This document shows, one piece after another, positions 8,735-32,883 of a stretch of DNA of 39,471 bases. This stretch comes from a virus. The stretch spans positions 1 to 39,471 of the IMG/VR virus record IMGVR_UViG_3300033149_000835. The stretch is one strand, 5' to 3'. The translations under genes and the position numbers were made by a program. Below the pieces are notes generated by a model, which saw nothing but the letters and a program-made list of their open reading frames with translations, was not told the DNA's origin and did not search any database. How positions within the stretch are numbered: the first letter of the stretch is position 1; every line of letters begins with the position of its first letter.

Positions 8735-8758
8735 CAAATTCAATCAATCGTGTATAAT
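8731..8758 (+). promoter_or_regulatory. Sigma-70-type promoter
   Basis: TTGACA (8731-8736), 16-base spacer, TATAAT (8753-8758): both hexamers match the consensus perfectly. It overlaps the last codons of the endolysin and is followed within three bases by a strong Shine-Dalgarno and a 9-codon leader frame. Confidence 0.8.
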
Positions 8759-8768
8759 GAAGGAGGAA

Positions 8769-8798
8769 ATGATGGCAATTACTCAAAACTATGGTTGA
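8769..8798 (+). CDS. Possible 9-residue leader peptide
   Basis: AGGAGG (8761-8766) lies three bases before ATGATG at 8769, opening a frame that encodes MMAITQNYG and stops at TGA 8796-8798. The Shine-Dalgarno is among the strongest in the genome, yet the frame is tiny. The promoter -10 is so close that the transcript would begin at or inside the Shine-Dalgarno, so this could also be a chance frame or a leaderless start. The second promoter begins inside its stop codon. Confidence 0.35.
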   Translation: MMAITQNYG

Positions 8799-8824
8799 CA
8801 GCTTACCCTTTTTCTCAGTTTAAT
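8795..8824 (+). promoter_or_regulatory. Second promoter with operator-like repeats
   Basis: TTGACA (8795-8800), 18-base spacer, TTTAAT (8819-8824, five of six). The -35 is part of an inverted repeat, GTTGACA (8794-8800) with TGTCAAC (8828-8834), and GTCAACAA occurs twice in direct order (from 8829 and from 8840). The arrangement looks like a repressor-controlled promoter feeding the phosphoesterase gene. Confidence 0.5.
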
Positions 8825-8866
8825 AGTTGTCAACAAGTCGTCAACAAAGGAGGTTAATAAAAGAAA

Positions 8867-8900
8867 AGGAGGGCAAAAGTAAGTTAGCTTCTGTCCTCCT
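8867..8900 (+). other. Hairpin enclosing an AGGAGG sequence
   Basis: Left arm 8867-8879 pairs with right arm 8888-8900 (AGGAGG with CCTCCT at the base); 12 of 13 positions pair, including one G-U, with an 8-base loop. The left arm contains a Shine-Dalgarno-like sequence without a start codon behind it. The hairpin ends eight bases before the phosphoesterase ATG and may act as a transcript boundary or translational control element. Confidence 0.5.
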
Positions 8901-8908
8901 ATATATTT

Positions 8909-9886: not shown

Positions 9887-9914
9887 CTTGACAAATAAAT
9901 TTAGCTATGCTAAG

Positions 9915-9923
9915 TTATCCACA
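9915..9923 (+). promoter_or_regulatory. DnaA box
   Basis: TTATCCACA is a perfect match to the strong bacterial DnaA-binding consensus and lies in non-coding DNA. It overlaps the position where the -10 of the TTGACA at 9888 would sit, so DnaA binding could also repress transcription there. Confidence 0.6.
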
Positions 9924-9949
9924 TACGAATCTGGCGTATTAATTTAGCT

Positions 9950-9984
9950 AAAGAGCTGTGTAGCCAGATTCTACATGGCTCTTT
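9950..9984 (+). other. Long hairpin, 14-bp stem with 7-base loop
   Basis: Left arm 9950-9963 pairs fully with right arm 9971-9984 when G-U pairs are allowed (AAAGAGC with GCTCTTT, TGTAG with CTACA); the loop is CCAGATT. An alternative stem, GAATCTGGC 9927-9935 with GCCAGATTC 9963-9971, uses the loop bases, so the two folds exclude each other. Confidence 0.55.
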
Positions 9985-10052
9985 GCTTATATAAAATGCA
10001 TACAAATACAAATAAACCAATACAACAGAATGTCCTATTTATAGAGAAACAT

Positions 10053-10141
10053 TGTTCCCTATGGTATAAAAGGAGAACAGACCACAAATCCAGGCCATGT
10101 CCCGCCCCTGACAACCTGGTCTAGGCTTGTTCTTCTTTTTT
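10053..10141 (+). terminator. Intrinsic terminator with a competing upstream stem (attenuator-like)
   Basis: The terminator form pairs 10068-10079 with 10128-10139 and encloses CCAGG (10090-10094) with CCTGG (10115-10119) and TGTC with GACA. A T-rich run follows from 10134. The left arm can instead pair upstream: TGTTCCCT (10053-10060) with AGGAGAACA (10071-10079). The interior is much more GC-rich than its surroundings. Lying just before the CAP-domain gene, it could terminate the preceding transcript or gate this gene. Confidence 0.6.
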
Positions 10142-10196
10142 ATTTATTAATTTTTAATTAAACAGGTATTTCCTTCTTACCTAGAATAGAGGGGCT

Positions 10197-10658
10197 ATGG
10201 ATATGAAAACATTAATATTTATTATCTACATTAAAATACTTATTCTTCTTGGGTTATTAGGGTCTCCAATTATGCCGGTTGAATCTATTGTAATTCCAGA
10301 AATTCAATCTATTGAATTAAACCAATTAGAAAAAGAAGTTAATCAATATCGTTTAGAAAATGGTTTTAATATTTTAGAGGCTTCAGAGTGTTTAAGGGAT
10401 AGGGCTACAATGCGTTTAGGAGAGATCAAAACGCAATTTAGCCATATACGCCCTAATGGTAATTATTCAGTAAGTGAGAAGTATTGTGGGGCTACTAAAA
10501 GGGGTGAGAATTTGGCTAGGGATATAATTGATCCGGCGTTTTTAATTTTGGCGTGGCAGAAAAGCCCTACCCACAATGCAGTTTTATTAAATCCGAAGTA
10601 TAAAAAAATAGGGATATTCATAGAAGGCGAATATGCTGTTTTAGAGGTGAGTAATTAG
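10197..10658 (+). CDS. Secreted CAP (SCP/YkwD-like) domain protein
   Basis: A 153-residue protein. Residues 4-22 are a hydrophobic signal or anchor (TLIFIIYIKILILLGLLG). Residues about 43-150 carry the CAP fold: 'EVNQYRLENG' at the start, 'FSHIRPNG' at 81-88, 'GENLA' at 103-107, W120 with 'SPTHN', and 'PKYKKIGI'. These are the hallmark positions, including the two histidines, of bacterial YkwD-like CAP proteins. ATG 10203 (codon 3) is an equally possible start. CAP domains are extracellular and of mixed or unknown activity; a role at the host envelope is inferred. Confidence 0.8.
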   Translation: MDMKTLIFIIYIKILILLGLLGSPIMPVESIVIPEIQSIELNQLEKEVNQYRLENGFNILEASECLRDRATMRLGEIKTQFSHIRPNGNYSVSEKYCGATKRGENLARDIIDPAFLILAWQKSPTHNAVLLNPKYKKIGIFIEGEYAVLEVSN

Positions 10659-10661
10659 GGT

Positions 10662-10670
10662 TGTGGATAA
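10662..10670 (-). promoter_or_regulatory. DnaA box (reverse strand)
   Basis: TGTGGATAA is the exact reverse complement of TTATCCACA, the strong DnaA consensus. It sits between the CAP gene stop and the promoter at 10676, five bases before the -35. The two boxes face opposite directions about 750 bp apart. Confidence 0.6.
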
Positions 10671-10675
10671 CTTAC

Positions 10676-10704
10676 TTGACAATTATATCATATTGATATA
10701 TACT
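10676..10704 (+). promoter_or_regulatory. Sigma-70-type promoter for the RHH regulator gene
   Basis: TTGACA (10676-10681), 17-base spacer, TATACT (10699-10704, five of six). The ATG of the regulator gene follows only seven bases after the -10, so the transcript would be leaderless or nearly so. The ATATATAC/TGATATAT repeats around the -10 could be an autoregulatory operator for the RHH protein. Confidence 0.75.
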
Positions 10705-10711
10705 GATATAT

Positions 10712-10849
10712 ATGAAGATAAAAGAAAAAGAATATCTATTAAGACTACCGAATAATTTATATATTCAGATCAAGCAATATTCCCGGGATAACGATATGTC
10801 CATAGCTAGAGCAATACGCAAAGCTATAAAATTATTATTAAATAAATAA
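10712..10849 (+). CDS. Ribbon-helix-helix (Arc/CopG-like) DNA-binding protein
   Basis: A 45-residue protein, MKIKEKEYLLRLPNNLYIQI followed by a helix 'KQYSRDND', a turn, and a helix 'MSIARAIRKAIKLLL'. The beta strand 'YLLRLPNNL' then helix-turn-helix with S-x-A-x-A-I-R is the ribbon-helix-helix pattern of Arc, CopG and MetJ-type repressors, which bind DNA as dimers through the N-terminal strand. It is preceded by its own promoter and a DnaA box and followed one base later by the WDSV-repeat gene. A regulator of early or replication functions is a reasonable inference. Confidence 0.8.
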   Translation: MKIKEKEYLLRLPNNLYIQIKQYSRDNDMSIARAIRKAIKLLLNK

Positions 10850-10850
10850 T

Positions 10851-11642
10851 ATGTGTCAAGCATTTAGTGCATTAGTAACAAAATCAAAAAAGGTCTATTG
10901 GAAAACAGGGGTGGATTCTCATGATGAATTACAGGTGATGTATGTTAAAAAGGATAAGGAATTAAAAGATGATAAAGAACCGCCTAATAATACTTTTGCT
11001 CGGATTGAAATTGCACCCAAGAATAGGGATTATTTAAATCCTGATAAATGGATTTATAATATTGATGAGAGAGTAAAACCTAAATGGTTAAAAAAATCTT
11101 ATGAGAAGCCTTGTCGAGAGGCTTGGAAGCTATGGAAAGAGGAGGTTTATAGCTTAATAGATTTGGAAGGATTAAAGAATTTAATACATCCTTTCAAGAT
11201 TACTCCGCCAAAAAAGATTACTAAGAAACATCTTAATTTATTGCGACAATGGGATTCAGTCTGGGATTCAGTCAGGGGTTCAGTCTGGGATTCAGTCAGG
11301 GATTCAGTCAGGGATTCAGTCGGGGGTTCAGTCTGGGATTCAGTCAGGGATTCAGTCTGGGATTCAGTCAGGGGTTCAGTCTGGGATTCAGTCAGGGATT
11401 CAGTCGGGGATTCAGTCGGGGGTTCAGTCGGGGGTTCAGTCAGGGATTCAGTCTGGGCTTATACTGGTTCGCATTTCGAGATTAAGAAATGGAGATATAC
11501 TGATAAGATAAAAATTAAAGGCTATCCATTTCAGAGTGTAGTCAAGTTATGGAAAATGGGATTAGTGCCTAGTTATGACGGAAAGGTGTGGAGATTGCAC
11601 GGAGGTAAAAAAGCTAATATTTTATGGGAAGGAAAAATTTAA
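10851..11642 (+). CDS. WDSV-repeat protein of unknown function
   Basis: A 263-residue protein in three parts. The N-terminal domain (about 1-132, starting MCQAFSALVTKSKKVYW) resembles a family seen in many phages and environmental genomes that starts MC-x-F-S. The central 68 residues are seventeen 4-residue units of the form [W/R/G]-[D/G]-S-V. The C-terminal part (about 203-263) is basic and aromatic. The repeat periodicity suggests a regular beta-solenoid-like or extended structure. It begins one base after the RHH gene stop. I do not know its function. Confidence 0.75.
   Translation: MCQAFSALVTKSKKVYWKTGVDSHDELQVMYVKKDKELKDDKEPPNNTFARIEIAPKNRDYLNPDKWIYNIDERVKPKWLKKSYEKPCREAWKLWKEEVYSLIDLEGLKNLIHPFKITPPKKITKKHLNLLRQWDSVWDSVRGSVWDSVRDSVRDSVGGSVWDSVRDSVWDSVRGSVWDSVRDSVGDSVGGSVGGSVRDSVWAYTGSHFEIKKWRYTDKIKIKGYPFQSVVKLWKMGLVPSYDGKVWRLHGGKKANILWEGKI
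11250..11453 (+). repeat. Tandem 12-bp repeat, 17 units, coding
   Basis: Seventeen consecutive 12-base units of the type TGGGATTCAGTC lie in frame inside the WDSV gene. Variation is confined mostly to the first codon (Trp, Arg, Gly by T/A/G changes) and the second (Asp/Gly). Near-identity makes copy number changes by slippage or recombination likely. Confidence 0.95.
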
Positions 11643-13056: not shown

Positions 13057-13376
13057 ATGAGAACAATAAAGTTTAGAGCATTTGAAACAGAAACAAAAGA
13101 AATGGTTAATGATATTTGGATAGCACCTGAATATGATTGGGCTGTTTTTGCTGATAATGATGCTATGTGTGAAAGGGAAAGAAGTGAAAACTGGAAATTA
13201 ATGCAATACACTGGCTTAAAGGATAAGAATGGAAAAGAAATCTACTTGTATGGAATAATGAGTGTGCTAGATGGGGATTAAAACATAAAGAAAATTATCC
13301 AGTATCAATTCATAGTAAAGGAAAATCACTTGAAATCATAGGCAATATATATGAAAATAAAGATTTATTAAAATAA
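13057..13376 (+). pseudogene. Second YopX copy, frameshifted
   Basis: The first frame starts at ATG 13057 (MRTIKFRAFETETKEM), carries 'MQYTGLKDKNGKEIY' and stops at 13279-13281. The missing C-terminal half continues in another frame from about 13250: 'ECARWGLKHKENYP' and 'LEIIGNIYENKDLLK', stopping at TAA 13374-13376. The tail closely matches that of the upstream YopX gene. The usual segment after KEIY (EGD...) is also deleted. A 74-residue truncated product might still be made. Confidence 0.8.
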
Positions 13377-13377
13377 C

Positions 13378-13522
13378 TATCCCCTTTGGATATAATTTTG
13401 TCTAGTTCTTCAAAACTTAGGAGGTTGGAAGCCTAGTAATCAAATCAATTTTTGAGCAGAGTTATATCCTTTTGGGATGGTATTCGCCACTTGGCGAGGT
13501 TATCCCTCTTTCACCTCGCCAA
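13378..13522 (+). ncRNA. Candidate structured RNA element, unknown class
   Basis: Non-coding. GGATATAA (13388-13395) pairs with TTATATCC (13462-13469), enclosing several smaller hairpins (for example TCAAA with TTTGA). Two small repeats of the type ATCC-N5-GGAT occur at 13379-13391 and 13466-13478. Downstream, TTGGCGAGGT (13491-13500) pairs perfectly over ten bases with 13513-13522, and an alternative hairpin TCGCCA/TGGCGA (13484-13497) competes. It could be a riboswitch-like leader for 13539 or a stand-alone RNA. Confidence 0.4.
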
Positions 13523-13538
13523 CTGATAAATACATATT

Positions 13539-18503: not shown

Positions 18504-18755
18504 ATGAAAACAAGACTAGATCACTTAAAAGAGATTAGAGAAGCCAATGAAAGGCAAGCTATTTTGCTTGAAGTGCAAATGTGCATTGCTGAAAGGCACA
18601 AAGCAACTATGTCGTTAAAGCCTAATGCCGGTAATATGCTGGAATTGCAGAACATTATTACAAAAGCAAAATCACAAATAAAAGATTTAGAAGAAGGTAT
18701 AGATGTTCTAAATGACAAAATCATTACTGAATCTAAAAAACAAAAGAAAACTTGA
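18504..18755 (+). CDS. Coiled-coil hypothetical protein
   Basis: An 83-residue protein with helices 'IREANERQAILLEVQMCIA' and 'LELQNIITKAKSQIKDLEEG', mostly predicted coiled coil. It overlaps the next gene by 44 bases. It may be a scaffold-like or packaging accessory, but nothing diagnostic is visible. Confidence 0.55.
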   Translation: MKTRLDHLKEIREANERQAILLEVQMCIAERHKATMSLKPNAGNMLELQNIITKAKSQIKDLEEGIDVLNDKIITESKKQKKT

Positions 18756-19377
18756 TGTAGTTATTACTACATCTTGGGATGACTTTACTGAACAAGATGA
18801 ACGATTAGTCCAGTTGCTTTTAGAATACAGAATACCGGCTATCTTTTATATCCCATATAACGCATTGCTAAGAGAAGGTGCTATGCGATTGGCCAAGCGG
18901 GTGTCTAAGAGATTTGGTATAGGCTCGCATACTGTCAATCACAAGATACTGACAAAGATTTCAAATGACGAATTGACAGAAGAAGTGTTTGGTTCTAAGC
19001 AACTGTTAGAAAGTAGCCTGGAGATTCCGATTAATTCATTCTGCTATCCTCGGGGGCGGTATAATCAGAAAGTAATTAATGTGGTTAAGGAAGCCGGATA
19101 TACTTCGGCCAGGACAGTTGATGTTTTGAATACGGATATACTGACTGATCCTTACAGGATTAAAACAACTATACACGCATTTTCTGGAAGGCAGGAATAT
19201 AAGGGGGATTGTTGGGTAGATATAGGATTGAGAAAACTGGATGAGGTGCTATTATGCGGTGGGTATTTCCACTTATGGGGACACAGCAAGGAGATAGAAA
19301 AAAATAAGGAATGGACTAATTTAGAATGGTTTTTAAGTTATTTAAGCAATCGAATAAATGAAGATATACTTAGCTAA
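18712..19377 (+). CDS. Polysaccharide deacetylase (NodB/CE4-like)
   Basis: A 221-residue protein with NodB-fold motifs: 'SWDDF' (D23, D24) in place of the usual TFDDG, 'GSHTVNH' with metal histidines 73 and 77, 'CYPRGRYN' at 111-118, and 'FHLWGHSKE' near the C-terminus with the catalytic His. CE4 enzymes remove N- or O-acetyl groups from glycans such as peptidoglycan or extracellular polysaccharides. No signal peptide is seen, so a cytoplasmic substrate or intermediate is more likely. It is the first gene of the island. ATG 18712 is the only clear start. Confidence 0.8.
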   Translation: MTKSLLNLKNKRKLDVVITTSWDDFTEQDERLVQLLLEYRIPAIFYIPYNALLREGAMRLAKRVSKRFGIGSHTVNHKILTKISNDELTEEVFGSKQLLESSLEIPINSFCYPRGRYNQKVINVVKEAGYTSARTVDVLNTDILTDPYRIKTTIHAFSGRQEYKGDCWVDIGLRKLDEVLLCGGYFHLWGHSKEIEKNKEWTNLEWFLSYLSNRINEDILS

Positions 19378-20260
19378 TCAATCAAAACAAAGTCTTGGCG
19401 GTGGCTGGACTTTTATGCAGAATTTAAAGACTGTTTTAAAAGATAAGGTTGAGTTTGTTGATAATGCGTGGGATTGTGATATTTACTTTATATCCGGTGC
19501 AACAATGGTTAATAGAGATGAGGTTAAGGCGGCTAAGGAGGAGGGCAAGAAGATTGTATTGAGGGTTGACAACATACCCAGAAACAGCAGGAACAGGAAT
19601 ACAGGGACTACACGACTGTATGACTTTGCGCAGTTGGCCGATCATGTAGTGTTCCAGTCAGAGTGGGCTAAGGATAAAATGCTGCCATTACTGGATGCTG
19701 AACGGGATGAGATTAGTAATGATAATAATAACTTTCTATATGGCCAGGGCGGTAAGAAACAGTTTAAAGATTGGTCAATAATTTATAATGGTGTTAATAC
19801 GGATATATTCAAGCCAGAGGGTGGCCATATAGTTAAATCACCTGATTGGAAATATTATTTAATCAATCGGCTTAACCGGGATAACAACAAACGCTTAGAA
19901 GAAGCCCTTGACATATTCACAGATATATGGCGTGAGAATAAAAAATCTAAGTTATATATAATTGGTAAGTTTTCACCTGAATTAATAGATGCTTACTTTG
20001 ATTTTTACTTAGGTGAATCTTTTGAGTGTTTGGGAGTTATAAGTAGTCAGGAGAGTTTGGCTGAAATTTATAGGACTTGTGATACGCTTATCTATCCTAG
20101 TTATTCAGACGCTTGCCCTAATGTGGTGCTGGAGGCCAGGGCTTGTGGATTGAGTGTATGGCATAGTGGACACGCTGGAATACCGGAAATTATGGCTTTA
20201 GAGGATATTTCTTTAGAGAGAATGGGGAGGGAATATTATAATTTATTTAAGAAGTTATAA
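19358..20260 (+). CDS. Glycosyltransferase, GT4-like (GT-B fold)
   Basis: A 300-residue protein. 'QSLGGGWTFMQNL' is the N-terminal glycine-rich loop, 'SIIYNGVNTDIF' the linker of GT4 proteins, and 'YPSYSDACPNVVLEARACG' the C-terminal nucleotide-sugar site with the E-x7-E type motif. It is shorter than many GT4 proteins (350-400) but both Rossmann halves look complete. It transfers a sugar from a nucleotide donor; donor and acceptor cannot be predicted. It overlaps the deacetylase gene by 20 bases. Confidence 0.85.
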   Translation: MKIYLANQSKQSLGGGWTFMQNLKTVLKDKVEFVDNAWDCDIYFISGATMVNRDEVKAAKEEGKKIVLRVDNIPRNSRNRNTGTTRLYDFAQLADHVVFQSEWAKDKMLPLLDAERDEISNDNNNFLYGQGGKKQFKDWSIIYNGVNTDIFKPEGGHIVKSPDWKYYLINRLNRDNNKRLEEALDIFTDIWRENKKSKLYIIGKFSPELIDAYFDFYLGESFECLGVISSQESLAEIYRTCDTLIYPSYSDACPNVVLEARACGLSVWHSGHAGIPEIMALEDISLERMGREYYNLFKKL

Positions 20261-20318
20261 ATGTGCCCTAGCGGGGGAAAAATCCCCCAATGGGGCTAAA
20301 GAATATTATAATTTATTT
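20231..20318 (+). repeat. 18-bp direct repeat flanking a GC-rich hairpin
   Basis: GAATATTATAATTTATTT occurs at 20231-20248 (end of the GT4 gene) and again at 20301-20318. Between them a strong hairpin (20265-20296) pairs GCCC with GGGC and GGGGGA with TCCCCC around an AAAA loop. It may be a transcript element or the trace of a small duplication at the gene boundary. Confidence 0.6.
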
Positions 20319-20330
20319 GATAGATAAATT

Positions 20331-21215
20331 ATGAAAATACTCATAACAGGTAGCTCTGGCTTTATAGGCAATAAGATATTTGCTGATCTTGATTGTTGTG
20401 GGCAGAAAGACAAGCTATTCCCTTACGATATAAAGACAGGAGATGATATTAGGGATAGGCGGAAGCTGGATCATATATTCGAAACAGAGAACTTTGATAT
20501 TGTAGTGCATTGTGCCGCTTTAACTGGTGTGAGGCGAGGTGAAGAATATCCGGAGGAGTATATCGCCACCAATGTATTGGGAACTAAGAACATAGTAGAT
20601 ATGTGCGATAAGTATGATGTTGATCACCTGATTAACTTTTCATCTTCATCTATTTACTTTCAGACTGGGAGTGAACCTGTTAGGGAGGAGGAAGAAATAA
20701 ACCCACATTCAATTTATGGAATGACTAAGTTAATGGCAGAGCATATTGCTATGCGTGCTGACAGTAAGGTTACGACTATCAGGCCATTTACTGTGTTTGG
20801 TGAGAATGGGAGGCAAGACCAAGTTATACAAAAATGGATTAATCAGATAAACGCTGGTATGCCTATTAGCTTTTACGGAGATGGCCGGACTGGGAGAGGT
20901 TATACTTTTGTTGACGATTTGGTTAGGGGGGTAAGAATGTTGATTGACTTGACTTATAGCGAGCATCATTTTACTAATATATTGAAGCGGACTTACAATA
21001 TAGGTGGGGATTTGTTTATAACACTAGATGAGTTGGTGGATTTGTTTAAGGAGGTTGTGCCAAATTTAAAGATTCATAAATTACCACTTCCTAAAGGGGA
21101 TAATATGTATAATCTAGCAGATACCAGTTTTATTAATGAGGAACTTGGCTGGCAACCTGAATGTAATTTTAATAATACGCTAAAGAAGATTATTAAGTCG
21201 CAGTTAAATGATTAA
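20331..21215 (+). CDS. NAD-dependent sugar epimerase/dehydratase (extended SDR)
   Basis: A 294-residue protein. 'GSSGFIG' at 7-13 is the NAD-binding glycine motif. S-S-S-S-I-Y (about 103-108) and Y-G-M-T-K (about 128-132) supply the catalytic Ser, Tyr and Lys of extended short-chain dehydrogenases. 'IRPFTVFGENGRQDQVI' and 'GDGRTGRGYTFVDDLV' are substrate-domain motifs typical of UDP-glucose/GlcA 4-epimerases. It likely makes or changes an NDP-sugar for the glycosyltransferases of the island; exact substrate is not determinable. It overlaps the dehydrogenase gene by eight bases. Confidence 0.85.
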   Translation: MKILITGSSGFIGNKIFADLDCCGQKDKLFPYDIKTGDDIRDRRKLDHIFETENFDIVVHCAALTGVRRGEEYPEEYIATNVLGTKNIVDMCDKYDVDHLINFSSSSIYFQTGSEPVREEEEINPHSIYGMTKLMAEHIAMRADSKVTTIRPFTVFGENGRQDQVIQKWINQINAGMPISFYGDGRTGRGYTFVDDLVRGVRMLIDLTYSEHHFTNILKRTYNIGGDLFITLDELVDLFKEVVPNLKIHKLPLPKGDNMYNLADTSFINEELGWQPECNFNNTLKKIIKSQLND

Positions 21216-21969
21216 GAATTACAGATCAGAGGTTGGTATAATAGGACTTGGTTTTGTCGGTGGCTGTGTCAGGAGATATTTTAAGGGTGCTGATACATAT
21301 TCTTTGACAAAGGGAGATTTTAAAAAGGTAAATAGACAGAAGTATATATTTCTATGTTTGCCTACACCGTTTAACAAGAAAATGGGAGGCTTTGACTTGA
21401 CTGCTTTGCATCAGAATATATCACAGCTATCTGGCAAAAAGAATATTATTATAAAATCAACTATATTGCCGGGGACTACTAATTACTTTCAGCAAATGTA
21501 TCCACAGCACAACTTCTTCTTTAATCCGGAGTTTCTGCGAGCCAAGCACGCTTGGAAAGACTTTATAAATCCTAGTCGGCAGATAGTTGGTTATGTGAAA
21601 CCGCACCTCAAAAGCATAGCGAATAAGATTATAGAGATGCTTCCGTTGGGAGAGTTTAACCAGATATGCAGCGCTAAGGAGGCAGAGGCGGTTAAACTAA
21701 TCAGTAATTGCTATCTAGCAAGCCGGGTAGTGTTTGCCAATCAGATGTATGACTGGATAACGGAGAGAAACCTGGATTATAAAAAGGTAATTAGAATGGT
21801 AAAGTTTGACCCACGCATAGGCGCAAGCCATTGGGATATATTCACTGATAAGCATAGGGGATATGCCGGGCTGTGCTTTCCTAAAGATATGCAAGCGGTG
21901 ATTATGGATAGCGGCTCACCATTATTAGAATTAACTGATAAATTAAATGATGAATATTTAAAGAAATGA
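21208..21969 (+). CDS. UDP-glucose/GDP-mannose dehydrogenase homologue, short form
   Basis: A 253-residue protein. 'GLGFVG' at 13-18 binds NAD. 'KSTILPGTT' (83-91), 'NPEFLR' (106-111), 'KLISNCY' with K163 and N167, and 'GYAGLCFPKD' with catalytic C223 and K226/D227 match the catalytic set of UDP-sugar dehydrogenases. The C-terminal UDP-binding domain of usual enzymes (total 400 or more) is absent; the gene ends soon after the catalytic cysteine. It may be a minimal active form or act with a partner. Expected product: an NDP-uronic acid. Confidence 0.75.
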   Translation: MIKNYRSEVGIIGLGFVGGCVRRYFKGADTYSLTKGDFKKVNRQKYIFLCLPTPFNKKMGGFDLTALHQNISQLSGKKNIIIKSTILPGTTNYFQQMYPQHNFFFNPEFLRAKHAWKDFINPSRQIVGYVKPHLKSIANKIIEMLPLGEFNQICSAKEAEAVKLISNCYLASRVVFANQMYDWITERNLDYKKVIRMVKFDPRIGASHWDIFTDKHRGYAGLCFPKDMQAVIMDSGSPLLELTDKLNDEYLKK

Positions 21970-22526
21970 GTTATTACAAAGACCAGTTAAATAATTGGCT
22001 AAAAACAATAGATGTAAAAGCCGACAGAGTATTAGATGTCGGTGGTGCTTCTAATCCGGTTAAAGGGAGGACTAAAAGTTGGGAGGTTGAGGAATATGAT
22101 ATTGCTGATAATGGACTAGAGAATAAAGACTATGATACTTACCTAAATCTTAATTCTAATGTTGGGGTATATGCTGGTAATATTTATAAAAGAAAACAAT
22201 ACGATATTATATTTTGTTTAGAAGTAATGGAATATGTTTATAATCCTTATCTCGCCATAGAATGGCTTAAATCTTATACGAAAAAAGGTATTCTTTATAT
22301 TTCATTCCCATTTATTTATCCAATACACGATCCATATAAAAATGACTACTTACGCTATACCAGATTTGGAATAATTAAATTACTGCAATCTTTTGAGATA
22401 GAGAAGATGATAGGCCGGGAAGCTAAAGAGCCAGATAAGCTGATAGACTTCTATAAATCAGACGGAATGCATATTAAGACAGACAGCACTATAACTGGTT
22501 ATTTAGTTAAAGCTATTAAGGTATGA
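21966..22526 (+). CDS. SAM-dependent methyltransferase-like protein
   Basis: A 186-residue protein with 'VLDVGGASNP' (motif I, SAM binding) at about 22-31, 'YDIADNG' (motif II acidic residue), and 'YDIIFCLEVMEYVYNPYLAI', the class I methyltransferase post-II segment. It has no membrane segments. O- or N-methylation of a sugar fits its place between a UDP-sugar dehydrogenase and a glycosyltransferase. ATGA overlaps on both sides. Confidence 0.75.
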   Translation: MSYYKDQLNNWLKTIDVKADRVLDVGGASNPVKGRTKSWEVEEYDIADNGLENKDYDTYLNLNSNVGVYAGNIYKRKQYDIIFCLEVMEYVYNPYLAIEWLKSYTKKGILYISFPFIYPIHDPYKNDYLRYTRFGIIKLLQSFEIEKMIGREAKEPDKLIDFYKSDGMHIKTDSTITGYLVKAIKV

Positions 22527-23122
22527 AGATAGCGGTAGTATCTCACGGAGATGATAAAGTAAAGAAGTGGCGAGAAATATCATTTGCTAATAAGGAGAAG
22601 TATTGCAAAAAACACGGCTACGATTTTATAGGAAGTGATAGAGATACTAATATTGACAGACACCCTTGTTGGGAGAAATGTATTTTAATAAAAGAAGCGA
22701 TTGATAGCAATAAGTATAATTGGATATTCTGGTCGGATATAGACAGTTTAGTAGTGAATATGAATATAAAGTTAGAACAGTTTATTAGCAGCAGATACGA
22801 CTTGATAATCTCACATACTACATTACGCCTGAACTTCGGCAATGCCTTTATAAGTAATAGTGAGTTGAGCAAAAAGATAATGCGTGGCATAGAGGGCATG
22901 GTAAATAAGTATACTCAATATAAGTGGAAATGCGGTTGTGATGAGGGTGCGTTGATTAGGTTGTTAGGTAAGCCGGAATTTGCAATATACTTAGACAGGG
23001 TGAATGTAACTTATTATGCAACATATAATAAATTTCCATATGAATATCAGAAAGGCGACTTTATAATTCACTTCGCTAATAAATGGAAAAACTTTAATCA
23101 ATTTAAGGAGATGGCAATATGA
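22523..23122 (+). CDS. Glycosyltransferase, GT34 (GMA12/MNN10)-like
   Basis: A 199-residue GT-A protein. 'ANKEKYCKKHGYDFI' is typical of the GMA12/MNN10 (GT34) family, 'WIFWSDIDSLV' carries the DxD metal motif (D72, D74), 'FGNAFISNSELSKK' the acceptor loop and 'GDFIIHFANKW' the C-terminal His motif. Known GT34 enzymes are alpha-galactosyl or alpha-xylosyl/mannosyl transferases. The protein is small but all motifs are present. No transmembrane segment. Confidence 0.8.
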   Translation: MKIAVVSHGDDKVKKWREISFANKEKYCKKHGYDFIGSDRDTNIDRHPCWEKCILIKEAIDSNKYNWIFWSDIDSLVVNMNIKLEQFISSRYDLIISHTTLRLNFGNAFISNSELSKKIMRGIEGMVNKYTQYKWKCGCDEGALIRLLGKPEFAIYLDRVNVTYYATYNKFPYEYQKGDFIIHFANKWKNFNQFKEMAI

Positions 23123-23331
23123 AAATATCAATATATACACCAATAGCAAAACATAGAAGGAAACTTGACGAACTTAATATTGATGATGAAATTGTTATTA
23201 AAGTAGATACTCAGAATTATTATTGTAAGGTAAGAGGCTGGAATAAATATCAAGGCAGTATATTTGTGTTAAGAGTTAAGGGAGAACCAAAAACTGATAA
23301 AGAAATAATAAATATATTAAAACGAAAATGA
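23119..23331 (+). CDS. Small hypothetical protein in the glycan island
   Basis: A 70-residue protein, MKISIYTPIAKHRRKLDELN, strand-rich, with 'IVIKVDTQNYYCKVRGWN'. Its ATG and stop overlap its neighbours by four bases each, so it is translated within the operon. The first codons (ATGAAAATATCAATAT) resemble those of the next gene (MKISIF). No family is recognised. Confidence 0.55.
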   Translation: MKISIYTPIAKHRRKLDELNIDDEIVIKVDTQNYYCKVRGWNKYQGSIFVLRVKGEPKTDKEIINILKRK

Positions 23332-24206
23332 AAATAAGTATTTTCACAACTCTAGGTAATATAGGCAACACGCCTGATTATTGGCAGTATGCTTGGCGTG
23401 AAGCATTACAATCATATTTAGATTTTGCTGATGAAGTGGTGGTTGTATGGGGTGGAAAAAAACCATCAAGACCAGATCCCTACGAAGAAAATTTAAAAAC
23501 CATTGATTTATTTTGGCCATACGACTTTAGTTGGGAGGAGATAGCCAAGCACTTTAACGCTGGACTAGAGGCTTGCACTGGCGACTGGGCTATTAAAATG
23601 GACATAGACTACATAATACACGAAAAGGATATGGAGGGCTGGAGAACACAGTTAGAGGGCTATTTAAAAGAGAATTGGGCGGTATGTTCGTTTATGAAGT
23701 TTACAGTGCTTAATGTATTTAGGGCATATCAAAAGGTTCACTTGCCGTTTATTATAAATAAGAATAGTCTTCTGCCGGTTAAGTTTGGCATACCAACAGA
23801 CGATCCGGGTAGTGCGTGGGGTTATCCTATTTTGGCACAGGGTTTTGATGATAGGCGTGGACTGCCTGTCGGGACTACTATTCCAGACGAAATGGTGCGG
23901 TCAACCGGAGTTGATATATTTAACTACGATAATACATTCAGGAATAAGGAGAAGACTGGAGAACACTTTTTAAGGTTTAGTAATGCCAGGGCAAAGGCTG
24001 GATTTAAACGACAATGGGGAAATACTAAGGAAGAAGCACTAAAGAAGTTCTGTGATATGATGGCTTCACGGATTAAAAAGACAAGTGGAACTTATAAGCC
24101 ATTAAACCATATGTGCCACCCTAAATATATTAGGGACAGGATTAAGGGCTTAACTGTTGATGAGTTCGGTGCTAATAATTGGAATAATTTTAAGGGGATA
24201 TTATGA
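23328..24206 (+). CDS. Glycosyltransferase, GT2-like (GT-A fold)
   Basis: A 292-residue protein. 'ISIFTTLGNIGNTPDYW' begins the Rossmann-like domain, and 'NAGLEACTGDWAIKMDIDYI' holds the DxD (D92, D94) in the usual place after the A/G-rich helix. The rest of the protein has extra loops and a basic C-terminus. The GT2/GT-A class is secure; donor and acceptor are unknown. The gene opens with the four-base overlap typical of this operon. Confidence 0.75.
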   Translation: MKISIFTTLGNIGNTPDYWQYAWREALQSYLDFADEVVVVWGGKKPSRPDPYEENLKTIDLFWPYDFSWEEIAKHFNAGLEACTGDWAIKMDIDYIIHEKDMEGWRTQLEGYLKENWAVCSFMKFTVLNVFRAYQKVHLPFIINKNSLLPVKFGIPTDDPGSAWGYPILAQGFDDRRGLPVGTTIPDEMVRSTGVDIFNYDNTFRNKEKTGEHFLRFSNARAKAGFKRQWGNTKEEALKKFCDMMASRIKKTSGTYKPLNHMCHPKYIRDRIKGLTVDEFGANNWNNFKGIL

Positions 24207-24709
24207 AACTTAATCTTGGCTGTGGGCTTACATTACTTAAAGGTTTTATAAATATAGATTTAGAATATCCTGATAATATAGATTTCTTTATTGCACAGGC
24301 AAAAGGCACAAAATTTATAAGGCGAGATATTACAAGGGGTTTGCCGTTCAGTAACAATTCTATTGATGAAATTAGGGCAATATCGGTTCTTGAACATTTG
24401 GATAGTGATGACTTCTTGTTTGTAATGAATGAGTGTTGGCGTGTATTGAAAGAGGAAACCTTTTTAATAGTGAAAGTTCCTTACTGGAAATCAGACGCTT
24501 GCTGGCGTGATCCGACACATAAAAGGGGATTTAGCCTGAATACGATTAGATACTTTGATCAGATGAGCATTAAACATTATCCGACATACGGATTTATGCC
24601 CTGGAATATAATCAATGAACGGCTAATGAATAGCCGGCATGAAAAAGAATCTATTATAAATTGGGTGTTAAGCCCATATAAGAAAGGAGATTGGAAAAAA
24701 TATGCCTAA
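24203..24709 (+). CDS. SAM-dependent methyltransferase-like protein
   Basis: A 168-residue protein starting directly with motif I 'LNLGCG'. 'GFINIDLEYP' supplies the acidic motif II, 'SIDEIRAISVLEHLDSDDF' and 'ECWRVLKEETFLIVKVPYW' follow the Methyltransf_11/predicted-MT pattern common in capsule loci. It is small but complete. It likely acts on a sugar or lipid-linked intermediate; substrate unknown. Confidence 0.75.
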   Translation: MKLNLGCGLTLLKGFINIDLEYPDNIDFFIAQAKGTKFIRRDITRGLPFSNNSIDEIRAISVLEHLDSDDFLFVMNECWRVLKEETFLIVKVPYWKSDACWRDPTHKRGFSLNTIRYFDQMSIKHYPTYGFMPWNIINERLMNSRHEKESIINWVLSPYKKGDWKKYA

Positions 24710-25241
24710 TACATTTTGGGAAAATTTAAAAGAATACGCTAAGCCTGAACGCACAGAATATGTTGCGCCGATACTTTATTTTCTAGCTAAATATATGAAC
24801 GCTAAAGTAACGGCAGAGATAGGTTCGCTTAATGGTTATTGCACAGTAGCGTTGGCAACTGCTATGAAAGAAAATGTTGGAGTGCATTATGTTATTGAAT
24901 TGAGCAAAACTAATATCAAAAAAACAGAAGAAGTTTGTAAGATTTATAATATTCCAGAATATGTTTTTTATTACGAAGGAGATAGTCAAAAGATTGAATT
25001 TACCCGCAAACTAGATTTGTTGTTTGTTGACGGCGATCACGGTGAGAATAAAGTTATCCACGAAATTCAGAAATACTGGCCGCTTATAAACAAGAACGGC
25101 TTGATGTGCTTTCACGACCACCTTGCGCCTAAGTCAGTTGGTGTTGCCCTAAACGGTTCAAGCGTTAGGGAATTTAGGGAACAAGCCGAAGTAATTAATT
25201 TACCTTACGATAGTGGATTAACTATATGGAGAAAAAAATAA
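24702..25241 (+). CDS. SAM-dependent methyltransferase (Methyltransf_24-like)
   Basis: A 179-residue protein. 'AEIGSLNGYCTVALATAM' is motif I, 'HYVIELSKTNIKKTEEV' the second beta strand, 'LDLLFVDGDH' the D-G-D-H motif of the Methyltransf_24/TylF-like O-methyltransferases, and 'GLMCFHDHLAP' the following His motif. These families O-methylate sugars or hydroxylated natural products, with Asp/His metal ligands visible here. It overlaps the preceding gene by eight bases. Confidence 0.75.
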   Translation: MPNTFWENLKEYAKPERTEYVAPILYFLAKYMNAKVTAEIGSLNGYCTVALATAMKENVGVHYVIELSKTNIKKTEEVCKIYNIPEYVFYYEGDSQKIEFTRKLDLLFVDGDHGENKVIHEIQKYWPLINKNGLMCFHDHLAPKSVGVALNGSSVREFREQAEVINLPYDSGLTIWRKK

Positions 25242-26288
25242 ATGGATAAAAATATAGATTTAAAAACACCCGAGAATGTGGCAAGATTATATAATGGTAT
25301 TCGGAGTAGTGAGCTTTATAATATACCAAGACCAGTAAAAAAGGAAAATAGAGTTTCTGTAATGGTTGCTTTTACGCCAAACCCTTATCTTGCTTTGCAC
25401 TTTTTTGATCATATGAAAAACTGGATTGGTGATGTTGATGAGGTATTTATTGCGGTTGAGGGTGAGAATACAAAGTTTAATGGGGAGATAAAAAATTTTA
25501 TTAGTAATCTATTTTTGCACAATAAAATAAGCAACTTTGAATATGGACAGCCAATGGATCAAGGAGAAGTATTTGATAAAATGTTTCCGTTTGTTACAGG
25601 TGATATTCTGGTTACAATGGATAGCGATTATATTATTAAAAAGAGAGGCTATTTAAAAAAGTATCTGAAACAGATTGAGAGTGGCACTTACGATATTATA
25701 GGTTCAAGAGGTGGTGCTTGTTATAAAGAATTGAGGGCATTTTTAGATCCTTATGTGGCACATGATAAAGATAAAAATTTGAGAGTTAATCCGTTCCTTT
25801 CATTTTGGAAAGTGGAAACGCTAAAAAAGATTGTAGGACTTTCTTTTGCAGGCAAAGAGATTAAAAAGGGTGATATAATATTTCCTAAAGCGGAAGTTAA
25901 AGCGCCTGCTGACGGTTGGGTTGATCCGTTTGTTTTAGCTTATCTGGCCTATACGGAATATGATAAAAAAATATTTATAACAAAACAAGACGCTGAACCG
26001 CCGGATACTTTCCATTATAGCGGTATGTCTTGGACTTATAGATATTATCTAAGTAATGAAAATGGATTAACGCCTGACGGAACATTGGTGGGTAATAAGT
26101 TTAAGTTAAGAATATTCCATTTGGCTTTGCATATAGCTTTATATGAGAATTATAGAGGCCGTTATCCTGACAAGGAATATAATGATTTTGTGGGCGAAAC
26201 GCTGGAACAGCATAGGGGTTTTGCCAAAGACCATAAACAATTATTAGAAGATGATATTAAGATATTTAATGCGATAATAAAATTATGA
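25242..26288 (+). CDS. Glycosyltransferase-like protein with DxD motif
   Basis: A 348-residue GT-A-type protein. A short N-terminal segment precedes 'VSVMVAFTPNPYLALHFF', and 'GDILVTMDSDYIIKK' carries DSD (D127, D129). 'APADGWVDPF' and 'PPDTFHYSGMSWTY' are conserved-looking acceptor-side loops. It starts directly after the preceding stop. The class is inferred from fold pattern plus the acidic motif; it is less typical than the other members. Confidence 0.65.
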   Translation: MDKNIDLKTPENVARLYNGIRSSELYNIPRPVKKENRVSVMVAFTPNPYLALHFFDHMKNWIGDVDEVFIAVEGENTKFNGEIKNFISNLFLHNKISNFEYGQPMDQGEVFDKMFPFVTGDILVTMDSDYIIKKRGYLKKYLKQIESGTYDIIGSRGGACYKELRAFLDPYVAHDKDKNLRVNPFLSFWKVETLKKIVGLSFAGKEIKKGDIIFPKAEVKAPADGWVDPFVLAYLAYTEYDKKIFITKQDAEPPDTFHYSGMSWTYRYYLSNENGLTPDGTLVGNKFKLRIFHLALHIALYENYRGRYPDKEYNDFVGETLEQHRGFAKDHKQLLEDDIKIFNAIIKL

Positions 26289-26899
26289 AGGAAGATAGGG
26301 TTCACTTATTCCAAGACTATTTAAGGAAGTTTAATGTCAATCCTGATTTAGTTTGGTCGTGGTTGCTATATGACCGCTATTACGAAGCGAATATATTAAG
26401 GCGTTATCTATTAAAAAAAGGTATAACTAAATTTCACGGATTGGATTATGGCTGTGGTGTTGGGGATTATGGTGTTTATTTATTGAAACATTTTGATTGT
26501 TCAATGGACTTCCACGACTTTGATTATATGCTTGACTTTGTAAAGTTTAGATTAAAAGATCAAACCTTTAATGCAAAATATATTATTGCTGTTCCATCTG
26601 CATTGAAAGATAAATTGGGTGATTATACAGATATAGAAAAGCATGATTTAGTGATTTTCGGTGAGGTGCTTGAACATTTAAAGAATCCTGATGAGGTGCT
26701 TGAAGAATGTTTAGATAATAAAGTAAGATTTGTATTAACCACATCTTATCCTTATCGGGAGGATTTAGACCATTTTAAAAAGGGAGGACATTTAATGGAG
26801 GCTGGTAAATTGCAACCTGTCTGCCGAAAATTATTAGAAAATAATTATAATTTTTATAACCCAGAGGGTGGGTTAAGAATTTGGGAATTAAAACTATGA
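26285..26899 (+). CDS. SAM-dependent methyltransferase-like protein
   Basis: A 204-residue protein. 'GLDYGCGVGDYGVYLL' is motif I. 'FHDFDYMLDF' gives the motif II acidic residue. 'DLVIFGEVLEHLKNPDEVLE' is the usual post-II stretch of class I methyltransferases seen in polysaccharide clusters. The C-terminus ends with 'GGLRIWELKL'. Overlaps of four bases on both sides put it firmly in the operon. Substrate unknown. Confidence 0.75.
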   Translation: MKEDRVHLFQDYLRKFNVNPDLVWSWLLYDRYYEANILRRYLLKKGITKFHGLDYGCGVGDYGVYLLKHFDCSMDFHDFDYMLDFVKFRLKDQTFNAKYIIAVPSALKDKLGDYTDIEKHDLVIFGEVLEHLKNPDEVLEECLDNKVRFVLTTSYPYREDLDHFKKGGHLMEAGKLQPVCRKLLENNYNFYNPEGGLRIWELKL

Positions 26900-28509
26900 G
26901 AATATTAATGACACCTGACATTTTAGAGTGGGCAATCGGTAGTCTATCAAAAGCTATTATAAAACATAACCCACGATTTAACTGGTCGCTTATACCAGTT
27001 CACCCGAGGGGCGTAGCTAACAGTTTGCCTGCTATTGTAGAGGCACTTAAAAAGGGTGTTGATTTTTGGCACGCACAATATTGGAATAGTGCAATACAGA
27101 TGTTAAATGTATTTCCTGAACTTAAACATAAGCCTTCATTATTGACGCACCATAATCATCACTGTTTGGAGAAAAAGGACTGGCGAGTATTTAGTGGGGT
27201 AAATGAAATGACTAATTGGGGTTGTGATGTGTTGAGAAAAAAACACAATAAAGTTTATCATATACCACACGGCATTGATTTAGACAGGTATAGCTTTATA
27301 GATGATTACCCATCTAAGAATGATATACCAACAGTCGGTTATGTTGGCCGGGTAGTTCCCTGGAAAAAACTGGATAAAATTTGTGAGGCTGCTAAAAATC
27401 TGGATTATAAAGTGGTTGGTTATGGATATATTGATAAACCTGATTATTGGAATAGGATCAAAGAATTATATGTGCAAGAGAGTGATTGGGATAGGTCTAT
27501 ACTTGACTTTACTGGTCAGGTAGGCAGGCATGGAATGGCACCGGCTAATATGAAAGATGACGGCTATAAAAAAATGGATGTATTTGTGGCATATTCAGTA
27601 GGTGAAAAGGAATCAGGAACTTTACCTCTGTTGGAGGCTATGGCCAGAGGAGTGCCTGTAATGGCCACAGCACAGGGTATGGCAAGGGATTTGATTGAGC
27701 ATAACAAAAATGGTGTTATATTCAATGAGGATAATTTTGAGAGTGAACTTAAAAGAGTTATGGAGGATGTTGAATTGCGGAAACAGCTAAGGAAAAACGC
27801 TTGGGAAACTATAAAAAACTATCCTGAACAGAAAATGGCCAGGGCTTATGCTAAAAGTTATTACGATATTATATGGTCAGGTAATCCGGTAGTGTCGGTT
27901 ATAATCCCGACATTTGAAAGGGCTGAACATCTTGTCAATACGATAACCTCTATTGAAACACAAGAATACTTAGCTAAAGAGATAATTGTCGTTGATGACG
28001 GATCACAGGATAAGGGTGCTACCGAACTATTATGCCGAAAGCTAAAGGAGAAGATAAGAACACCACTTTTATACCTAAACACCAACCACAAAGGATATGG
28101 ACTTGCTAAAGCACGGAATATGGGTGTAGTAGAGGCATTGGGGGATATACTGTTATTCTTAGATGATAGGCTTACACTTGAAGATAATGCACTAGCAGAA
28201 ATTGCCAAAGTGCCTGATAAGAAATGGCATCACGGCGCAAAACTTTCAAAGGGCAAGATTTCAACCAAGCGGACTTTTATTGAAAACTTTAGCTGGATTA
28301 AGAAATCTGATTTTGTTTCAGGCGGAATGTTTAATGAACGAATGGGATATTATGGCGGTATGAGCCAGTTATTAAGAGAGCAATATTCTGAAAAGGTTGA
28401 GTTTAAATATAATAACAAGGCTACTGCCTATGAAGCTGTCAGGGCCAGGCGTGGGCGAAAGACAGATATATGGAAAGCTAAAGAAATAATTGCTAAGTTA
28501 AACGCATGA
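26896..28509 (+). CDS. Bifunctional GT4-GT2 glycosyltransferase fusion
   Basis: A 537-residue protein from ATG 26896 (the TTG at 26881 lies in the preceding gene). Residues about 1-330 form a GT4: 'IPHGIDLDRY', 'PTVGYVGRVVPWKKLD', 'ESGTLPLLEAMARGVPVMAT'. Residues about 340-537 form a GT2: 'VSVIIPTFERAEHL', 'EIIVVDDGSQD', and 'GLAKARNMGVVEALGDILLF' followed by LDDR in place of the DxD. Two transfers in one chain suggest sequential sugar addition. The C-terminal GT2 lacks a long acceptor domain, so it may be small. Confidence 0.85.
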   Translation: MRILMTPDILEWAIGSLSKAIIKHNPRFNWSLIPVHPRGVANSLPAIVEALKKGVDFWHAQYWNSAIQMLNVFPELKHKPSLLTHHNHHCLEKKDWRVFSGVNEMTNWGCDVLRKKHNKVYHIPHGIDLDRYSFIDDYPSKNDIPTVGYVGRVVPWKKLDKICEAAKNLDYKVVGYGYIDKPDYWNRIKELYVQESDWDRSILDFTGQVGRHGMAPANMKDDGYKKMDVFVAYSVGEKESGTLPLLEAMARGVPVMATAQGMARDLIEHNKNGVIFNEDNFESELKRVMEDVELRKQLRKNAWETIKNYPEQKMARAYAKSYYDIIWSGNPVVSVIIPTFERAEHLVNTITSIETQEYLAKEIIVVDDGSQDKGATELLCRKLKEKIRTPLLYLNTNHKGYGLAKARNMGVVEALGDILLFLDDRLTLEDNALAEIAKVPDKKWHHGAKLSKGKISTKRTFIENFSWIKKSDFVSGGMFNERMGYYGGMSQLLREQYSEKVEFKYNNKATAYEAVRARRGRKTDIWKAKEIIAKLNA

Positions 28510-28907
28510 AACTTGATATAGGCTGCGGCAAGAATTGTAGAGAAGGATATGAAGGTATTGATAAACAGAACTATGGACAGAAATTTGTCGGTGATGCCCT
28601 GTGGATTATTGAAACAGAATTTAGGAGGGAAACTATTGACGGAATATACACTTCTCACTTCTTAGAGCATTGCGAACAGGATTACATTATAAATCTATTG
28701 AAAAACTGTCATAGGATTTTAGTAAAAGACGGGATACTCTGGATTATAGTGCCGCACAAAGAACACGATAGAGCCTATATATTATGGCACAAGACTTTCT
28801 TTACCGAGTGGACATTTAGGGATTTAGAGGGTTATAAGGACTGGGAAATAATTGAATTGGTAACCAATAGCAGAATGGATATACATTGTAAACTAAAAAA
28901 GATATAA
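28506..28907 (+). CDS. Short SAM-dependent methyltransferase-like protein
   Basis: A 133-residue protein: 'MKLDIGCGKNCREGYEGID' is motif I plus the motif II acid, 'IDGIYTSHFLEHCEQDYII' and 'ILVKDGILWIIVPHKEH' the post-motifs. At 133 residues it is near the lower limit for a complete class I methyltransferase fold. It may be minimal, or a partner of one of the other four. Confidence 0.65.
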   Translation: MKLDIGCGKNCREGYEGIDKQNYGQKFVGDALWIIETEFRRETIDGIYTSHFLEHCEQDYIINLLKNCHRILVKDGILWIIVPHKEHDRAYILWHKTFFTEWTFRDLEGYKDWEIIELVTNSRMDIHCKLKKI

Positions 28908-28910
28908 GAG

Positions 28911-29705
28911 ATGCTTAAATCGGTATATATACAAACAAATACTCTGTGCAACAGCCGTTGTATTATCTGTCCTTACAAAGATACCTATGCTGGTAAGCGT
29001 GTTGGTAGAATGAGTTATGATTTGGCTATAAAGATATTCAAAGATTTAGGGGAAGATTATGAAGGCGAGATAGGGTTTTATTTTCAGTATGAACCTCTAA
29101 TGGATAGCCGGTTGCCTGAATTTCTAAAGTTAGCTAGGTGGGAATGCCCTAAGTCGAGAATTACAATATCAACCAACGCACAACTATTAGTTAAGAACTG
29201 GCAGAAACAGTTGATTGATTCACCACTTGATTGTGTTTACTTCAATGTATTAGGCGGAACTAAAAAGACTTATGAAAAGATAATGCATCCGCTTAACTGG
29301 GAAACGACTATTAAGAATATCAATGAGTTTGCAAAGAAATTTAAAGGCTCAATGTTCATTAACTATATAAAGATAAAAGAAAATAAAAAGGAAATTGGCG
29401 CTTTAATGAAAGTGCTACCGAATAATATCGGATTTATAACTGAATACTGGGCAAGTGATAGAAATAAGCGCATTAAAATAAATAAGCCCAAAGGTGCAAA
29501 AACTAGGTTTGTAACCGATCATAACTGCAATGTAATCGGGAAAGGTTTATATATTTACTATGACGGCAAAGTTCCGTTATGCTGTGAGATATGGGATAGA
29601 GAAGTTATTATAGGTGATGTCAAAAAACAAAATCTTTATAATATATTTAATTCACCTAAAAAGCATACACGATATGATGTGTGCAAGGAGTGTTTAATGC
29701 AATGA
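28911..29705 (+). CDS. Radical SAM protein with SPASM-like C-terminal Cys cluster
   Basis: A 264-residue protein. 'TLCNSRCIICPYKD' has the CxxxCxxC motif (C13, C17, C20) that binds the 4Fe-4S cluster and SAM. 'GEIGFYFQYEPLMDSRL' is the 'GGEP'-like SAM-binding strand and 'ITISTNAQLL' the next conserved strand. The C-terminus has 'CNVIGKGLYIYYDGKVPLCC' and 'YDVCKECLMQ', a SPASM/twitch-like cysteine set for extra clusters. It would catalyse a radical modification of a sugar or peptide; substrate unknown. Confidence 0.85.
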   Translation: MLKSVYIQTNTLCNSRCIICPYKDTYAGKRVGRMSYDLAIKIFKDLGEDYEGEIGFYFQYEPLMDSRLPEFLKLARWECPKSRITISTNAQLLVKNWQKQLIDSPLDCVYFNVLGGTKKTYEKIMHPLNWETTIKNINEFAKKFKGSMFINYIKIKENKKEIGALMKVLPNNIGFITEYWASDRNKRIKINKPKGAKTRFVTDHNCNVIGKGLYIYYDGKVPLCCEIWDREVIIGDVKKQNLYNIFNSPKKHTRYDVCKECLMQ

Positions 29706-29944
29706 AAAAAATATATAAAGAAAAATATTATAAAGTTAAGTTTTATAGTAAGGGTAATAAGTTAATGGCAACATCTTTTTTATGGAAAAGTGTAGCTGAA
29801 CCAACACCATTTAATTCTTGGGGGGCGCTATTAAACGCAATTTCAATACATAATTTTGATAAAGCAACAGCGAATAAACATGAAGCAAGAGCTTGTAAAG
29901 AGATAGAAGAAAAAACAGTTAAAATAATAATTGAAAAATTATGA
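29702..29944 (+). CDS. Small hypothetical protein in the glycan island
   Basis: An 80-residue basic protein, MKKIYKEKYYKVKFYSKGNK, ending 'EIEEKTVKIIIEKL', with strands at both ends and a helix between. ATG 29702 overlaps the radical SAM stop (ATGA); a GTG at 29681 in frame is unlikely. No family is recognised. Confidence 0.55.
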   Translation: MKKIYKEKYYKVKFYSKGNKLMATSFLWKSVAEPTPFNSWGALLNAISIHNFDKATANKHEARACKEIEEKTVKIIIEKL

Positions 29945-30627
29945 TAGGCGCATTTATATTATCAACAGGGCAAGAAACAGAAGGATCGTCAATAGCTTCA
30001 ATAGCTAAGCAGGTCAAGTTCCTTAGAATTATTAAACAACGCCCTGTTAATCGGTCAATCAATTTATGTTTCCGTTTGGCAGAAGAATATAAACTAACTT
30101 ATTTTGTGATACTCGGTGCTGACACTATCCATTATGAACACTCAATTAAGACAATGGCCAAGTATATGACTGATAAATTATGGTGTGTAATGGGTAAACT
30201 AGACGACTATTATAGGGGATCAGACAGTTATGGCAACCATTTATATAACGCTAAAGCACTTAAAGGGTATAGAGTTGATGAATCTGATCCGCTTTATGAC
30301 CATGCTATACACGCTGATATGGATAAAAAGGGATTTAAGAAAGTATTAACTAAGGAGATTATTGGCAAGCATCATCCTATGTGGACAACCCAAGAGGCTT
30401 TTGAGAAACATTTATTTAGCGGTAAGCGGTATAAAGATAAGGATTTTAGAATATACTATAACCAGGTAAAGAAACGGCACACAGAGAATCCCTGTGAAGT
30501 TAATCGGGCTGCCTATGAAGGATTTAAGGCTGGCATTGGTAATAAGCCTAAACCATTAATTCATTCTGAAACGCCGGAATGGAAAAAAGTTAAACATTTA
30601 TTTAAACAGGAAAAATTAATATGGTAA
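29941..30627 (+). CDS. Glycosyltransferase-like protein, GT2-type half
   Basis: A 228-residue protein. 'RPVNRSINLCFRLAEEYKL' followed by 'TYFVILGADTIHYEHSIKTM' fits the GT2 helix and acidic strand, with D61 at the DxD place (A-D-T). The N-terminal nucleotide-binding beta strand is short (MIGAFILSTGQ), so it may be an unusual or partial GT-A domain. A possible acceptor-binding C-terminal domain follows. Lower confidence than the other GT calls. Confidence 0.55.
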   Translation: MIGAFILSTGQETEGSSIASIAKQVKFLRIIKQRPVNRSINLCFRLAEEYKLTYFVILGADTIHYEHSIKTMAKYMTDKLWCVMGKLDDYYRGSDSYGNHLYNAKALKGYRVDESDPLYDHAIHADMDKKGFKKVLTKEIIGKHHPMWTTQEAFEKHLFSGKRYKDKDFRIYYNQVKKRHTENPCEVNRAAYEGFKAGIGNKPKPLIHSETPEWKKVKHLFKQEKLIW

Positions 30628-32863: not shown

Positions 32864-32883
32864 GAAGTCAAACTTACCACGAC

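Follow-up and report, generated by a model that had tools for sequence, protein, structure and literature searches.

What do two perfect DnaA boxes do in a phage genome in which no replication initiator is recognized? The window analyzed here comprises positions 1-39,471 of the IMG/VR record IMGVR_UViG_3300033149_000835, and an initial annotation of it placed a candidate DnaA-dependent replication origin at positions 9887-10711. The alternative that we favor, with a probability of roughly 0.55 and on the basis of sequence features, is that this interval is a junction between the late genes and the next operon that carries promoter-linked DnaA-type sites.

Phage map and gene order around the interval

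The window begins and ends with a 114-bp direct terminal repeat (1-114 is identical to 39358-39471), and, when the repeat is counted once, a head-tail adaptor gene stays in frame across the joined ends. Hence, the window represents a phage map of 39,357 bp (~39.36 kb) assembled as a circle, and the phage is a siphophage. The terminal repeat in another phage record, G010, has the same length (114 bp), which suggests that the repeat is an assembly overlap. Nearly all genes share a single orientation (+), and intergenic DNA amounts to 2,164 bp, or 5.5% of the genome. According to Pfam and PHROG scans, head-tail and tail genes, an M23 peptidase, a metallophosphoesterase, and a small membrane protein occupy the region up to 9886, while the DNA 3′ of the interval carries small genes, an HNH/NinG-like gene, the terminase, a sugar-/methyl-transferase island, and the portal, protease, and capsid genes. 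Among sequenced bacterial genomes, the closest terminase (49%) is found in a Patescibacteria contig; the host may therefore belong to the Patescibacteria.

The island between terminase and portal is long (18712-32708) and consists of glycosyltransferase, methyltransferase, radical-SAM, and nucleotide-sugar genes; a comparable island is present in two other records (G009 and L002). The conserved protein encoded at 31848-32708 was considered as a hidden initiator and rejected, as neither a family nor a strong structure match was obtained; its location among the sugar genes points to a glycosyltransferase-like role. Directly ahead of the portal and protease genes, ACGACAGACG occurs at 32879 and 36357, in both cases downstream of a promoter-like CTTGACAAAT element.

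The 825-bp interval had been described as non-coding. Both boxes do lie outside credible genes, but a CAP-domain gene (cysteine-rich secretory protein family; 153 aa) is situated between them at 10197-10658 on the + strand (PF00188, E 4.6e-9; phrog_16914), so that over half of the interval is coding. At 10712-10849 (+) follows a 45-aa gene for an Arc-like ribbon-helix-helix repressor (phrog_3180, E 2.6e-5; weak match to the CopG-family chain 9kkd), in which the family match spans residues 10-45, covering the ribbon-helix-helix region. The next gene (10851-11642, 263 aa) has relatives that are 44-66% identical in four loci (L089-L092), in which no TTATCCACA was found. This gene also contains 24-bp tandem repeats at 11251-11457, giving an SVWDSVRD-type peptide.

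Upstream of the CAP-domain gene, two RNA hairpins are predicted on the + strand. Hairpin 1 (9928-9990) has a 14-bp stem with two G-U pairs and a 7-nt loop, CCAGAUU, and its 9946-9990 part is far more stable than shuffled sequences (z -4.6). The loop is fully complementary, as read from the sequence, to AAUCUGG just upstream, raising the possibility of a pseudoknot or of an alternative stem, i.e., a switch between two stems. Hairpin 2 with its U-rich tail (10063-10162; z -4.4) has a 13-bp stem (10068-10080/10127-10139), a branched top, and the tail UUAUUUAUUAAUUUUUAAUU. As modeled, hairpin 2 is probably a terminator-like end of the late/lysis operon; a simple terminator scan with a loop limit of 8 nt did not call it. 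The initial annotation had also pointed to the AT-rich tract at 10134-10162. Its composition stands (28/29 A+T), but it lies 211 nt from the first box and 500 nt from the second, is one among five equally AT-rich 29-bp windows, and is formed by the 3′ arm of hairpin 2 plus its U-rich tail, on which ground it was rejected as an unwinding element. Rfam returned no RNA family at the gathering threshold, only chance-level matches; a tRNA or attachment-site reading was dropped, as no tRNA was found and the family scans revealed no integrase. The intergenic DNA at 9887-10196 matched no homologous DNA in phage records. Long stable hairpins are also predicted in the intergenic DNA at 13282-13538 and 8735-8908.

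Two identical 13-bp sites beside putative promoter elements

Both boxes are real: the exact word TTATCCACA is present at 9915-9923 (+) and 10662-10670 (-), and the window holds no other exact copy. They are 738 bp apart in opposite orientation with one gene between them. Moreover, the identity between the two sites reaches 13 bp, making them a perfect inverted pair of TAAGTTATCCACA, referred to here as site A (9911-9923, +) and site B (10662-10674, -).

The TTGACA elements that were noted beside the boxes are present at 9888 and 10676, and we read them as promoter -35 boxes. At 9888-9916 (+), a putative promoter, A, is composed of TTGACA, a 17-nt spacer, and TAAGTT; this is a consensus match only, with a weak -10 (3/6) and a TG one base upstream of it. 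Promoter B (10676-10704, +; TTGACA-17-TATACT) matches the consensus at 11/12 positions, again as a consensus match only. Its predicted start at ~10711 is one base ahead of the ATG of the Arc-like repressor gene, so the repressor transcript would be leaderless or near-leaderless. Site A and the putative -10 of promoter A overlap and start at the same base, and site B ends 1 bp ahead of the -35 of promoter B with its center at approximately -45. Hence, at both sites a DnaA box overlaps or lies within ~60 bp of promoter elements. The placement of site A at a putative -10 and of site B beside a -35 favors control of transcription, and the promoters beside the boxes appear to fit transcriptional control at least as well as they fit an origin.

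In the scanned AT-rich region, promoter-like matches number 43 compared with 43.8 in shuffles. Of the 18 TTGACA words on the + strand, 6 lie between genes in promoter positions, where intergenic DNA makes up only 5.5% of the genome, and a strong -10 accompanies those at 8731 (TTGACA-16-TATAAT), 10676 (TTGACA-17-TATACT), and 36309 (TTGACA-18-TATAAT). This placement suggests that TTGACA marks phage promoters here.

Is the occurrence of the boxes themselves within the reach of chance, as the initial annotation had conceded? Counted over the whole genome it is unremarkable: two exact 9-mers were seen where 0.54 are expected (P(>=2) ~0.10), and the relaxed consensus TTWTNCACA gives four matches compared with 6.0 in shuffles, so boxes are not enriched genome-wide. 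The intergenic DNA alone (2,164 bp) tells a different story, with 0.024 expected and two seen (P(>=2) ~2.8e-4), although this value is optimistic, as the finding was picked after the whole window had been read. Among 98 related and unrelated viral loci, 4 of the 11 occurrences of the 9-mer fell in intergenic DNA (a near-identical pair of records accounts for two of these), compared with 0 of 25 for three control words. Judged from these sequence data, the two sites are probably functional.

Outside the 9-mer, the additional bases of the 13-mer (AGTTATCCACA) agree with DnaA-type boxes that precede dnaA in Patescibacteria (TGTGGAAAACT, equal to AGTTTTCCACA), and three Patescibacteria genomes share the AGT prefix in boxes directly 5′ of dnaA; this comparison concerns box type only, covers ~300-400 bp upstream of dnaA, and involves a putative host of uncertain identity. 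The recurrence of the prefix supports the 13-mer being a DnaA-type site.

The word AAGTTATCCACA occurs in apparently intergenic DNA of other phage loci (L038 at 4539, L056 at 10451, and L060 at 1681), in L056 and L060 22 nt ahead of a start codon. The exact 17-mer TAAGTTATCCACATACG was discarded: it is present in six viral-collection contigs, about the number expected by chance, of which at least three have the same local sequence and none has a gene in common with the window.

Transcription junction, origin, chance, or insert

In our preferred reading, the interval would be a transcription junction that leads from the end of the late (tail/lysis) genes to the next operon. Late transcripts would enter the two strong hairpins, the second of which, with its U-rich tail, probably ends transcription. 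A strong sigma-70-type promoter at 10676-10704 would drive the Arc-like repressor gene along with the small genes that follow, while the weaker promoter-like element at 9888-9916 would start a short structured RNA. Both 13-bp TAAGTTATCCACA sites would act as DnaA-type binding sites tied to the adjoining promoters. On site A, host DnaA, presumed here to be the regulator that occupies the 13-mers, would cover the putative -10 and thereby block RNA polymerase; on site B, just 5′ of the -35, it could activate or modulate. In favor of this reading are the intergenic concentration of the 9-mer (P ~3e-4), the 13-bp identity, the promoter placement of the intergenic TTGACA words, hairpins far more stable than shuffled sequences, the agreement of the additional 13-mer bases with Patescibacteria dnaA boxes, and the like layout of the junction in a syntenic relative, G009. 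Against it count the 3/6 match of the promoter A -10, promoter matches that are no commoner than in shuffles, the long branched top of hairpin 2, which is unlike a textbook terminator, and the lack of conservation of the 13-mer sites in relatives.

The relatives deserve a closer look. A syntenic circular phage, G009, has the same junction layout without a DnaA box there; its six relaxed boxes are all away from the junction, and no initiator was found in it. After the last lysis-side gene, a terminator hairpin (GCCCCTC...GGGGGGCTTTTT; z -4.6) is predicted, followed by a 740-bp structured stretch (z -8.8) with a promoter, TTGACT-17-TATAAT, at 19707; the strongly structured non-coding DNA at this junction (L117 19328-20000) includes the terminator, the promoter, and several hairpins. 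G010, alone among seven phage records, has a Phage_rep_O gene, and zero relaxed DnaA boxes were found in it. Scanning viral contigs with the CAP and portal proteins yielded no relatives, and no relative was close enough for its intergenic DNA to be aligned; in the relatives examined, the sites are not conserved.

The origin proposed in the initial annotation can be moved to site B, where host DnaA would open the adjoining AT-rich repeats at 10675-10766 and load the host helicase, with site A helping or being incidental. Several observations agree with this unlikely scenario. As had been claimed, a phage initiator, a helicase, and a polymerase all went undetected in the Pfam/PHROG scans of the window, and six-frame searches (Phage_rep_O, HTH_36, DnaB_C, and Rep_3) gave no match. 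High-affinity boxes are present in the form of the two exact TTATCCACA words. By nearest-neighbor energies, no other 100-bp duplex in the genome is as unstable as 10666-10766; this stretch adjoins box B and includes 10-bp AT-rich direct repeats, TGATATATAC, at 10685-10712, thus providing an AT-rich element, though one that is also promoter DNA. The detrended GC-skew minimum falls at 10350, between the boxes, the third-position minimum at 9790 (p 0.10), and the G009 minimum at 20944, near the same junction. However, the skew stays positive over the full circle without a sign change, and its detrended amplitude falls short of significance (p 0.09-0.30), with the near-uniform + orientation of the genes as a confounder. 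In some plasmid origins, an AT-rich region is accompanied by no more than one or two DnaA boxes, which counts in favor of an origin here, but these plasmid origins also have iterons and their own Rep protein, and neither was found at this locus. Theta origins typically have an initiator that binds multiple sites beside an AT-rich region, as exemplified by the eleven 9-mers of E. coli oriC (PMC5043065). Here a single box adjoins the unstable stretch and the other is 738 bp away; within a few hundred bp no box cluster was detected, the inventory being two exact boxes and one 1-mismatch word in the CAP-domain gene, and a cluster of relaxed-consensus boxes was not found either. Moreover, the equivalent junction in G009 is free of boxes, and that phage too yielded no initiator. 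The initial sequence observation is largely borne out; the origin drawn from it is possible but has less support than the junction. A still bolder variant, that replication of a phage without its own initiator starts by DnaA only at such a minimal site, strikes us as quite improbable. One box would then stand beside AT-rich repeats that double as the promoter of the Arc-like repressor gene, and the repressor could gate transcription and origin opening alike.

It is also doubtful that the boxes are two functionless 9-mers that fell into the intergenic DNA of an otherwise ordinary operon junction by accident. The genome-wide P of ~0.10, a relaxed consensus below expectation, the lack of conservation in relatives, and the choice of the finding after a look at the whole window all speak for accident; the intergenic P of ~3e-4, the 13 bp of identity, and the more frequent intergenic location of the 9-mer than of control words in other phage loci speak against it. 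Finally, the inverted 13-mers might be the ends of a ~760-bp insert composed of the hairpins and the CAP-domain gene, with terminal inverted repeats like AGTTATCCACA flanked by TA. The perfect 13-bp inverted pair does bracket the CAP-domain gene, TA is present on the outer side of each 11-bp arm, and a CAP-like gene is found at a different place, beside the terminase, in G006. An insert is nevertheless very hard to credit, given that the family scans revealed no transposase or recombinase gene, there is no longer target duplication, a 13-mer is short for such ends, and the 9-mer core is a known DnaA word, which would be an unlikely coincidence.

Comparison with known DnaA-linked systems

If DnaA binds the sites, the phage would read the replication state of its host, using it for gene timing or for replicating its own DNA; if the locus is a promoter junction only, it represents ordinary phage anatomy. 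The fragment also offers a concrete place for testing how phages of very small bacteria replicate when they lack an initiator. Tailed phages without replication genes are already known (PMC11348598).

The window phage resembles RSA-ATP1 and related tailed phages of Patescibacteria (PMC13059738) in being a circularly assembled ~39-kb tailed phage with a NinG-like gene, and the host phylum is likely related, a likeness that does not imply sequence kinship. RSA-ATP1 differs in its use of code 25 and in having the recombination genes Exo and Bet (PMC13059738). With oriC-type and plasmid theta origins (oriC, pSC101, F, and P1), the window shares a box, at site B, beside very AT-rich direct repeats; unlike in these origins, no box cluster, iterons, or Rep protein was found, and the skew does not change sign. 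In phage lambda, DnaA-box-like sites that are protected by DnaA are located downstream of pO (PMC3985674). The lambda pR/pO region is similar in that host DnaA-type sites adjoin the promoters of a tailed phage, one whose size is comparable, but lambda encodes an initiator, O, as well as P and has iterons, and none of these was found in the window.

DnaA is an established promoter regulator, acting as activator or repressor (PMC8203912), and the E. coli promoters that it regulates include dnaA, nrdAB, mioC, and rpoH (PMC8203912, PMC5835720). As in these promoters, a perfect high-affinity DnaA word is positioned at or next to predicted promoter elements in intergenic DNA; the differences are that the putative sites reside in a phage and that there is only one site per promoter. 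A promoter-linked DnaA-type junction would thus be ordinary in kind, and only a demonstrated DnaA-only origin would come as a surprise.
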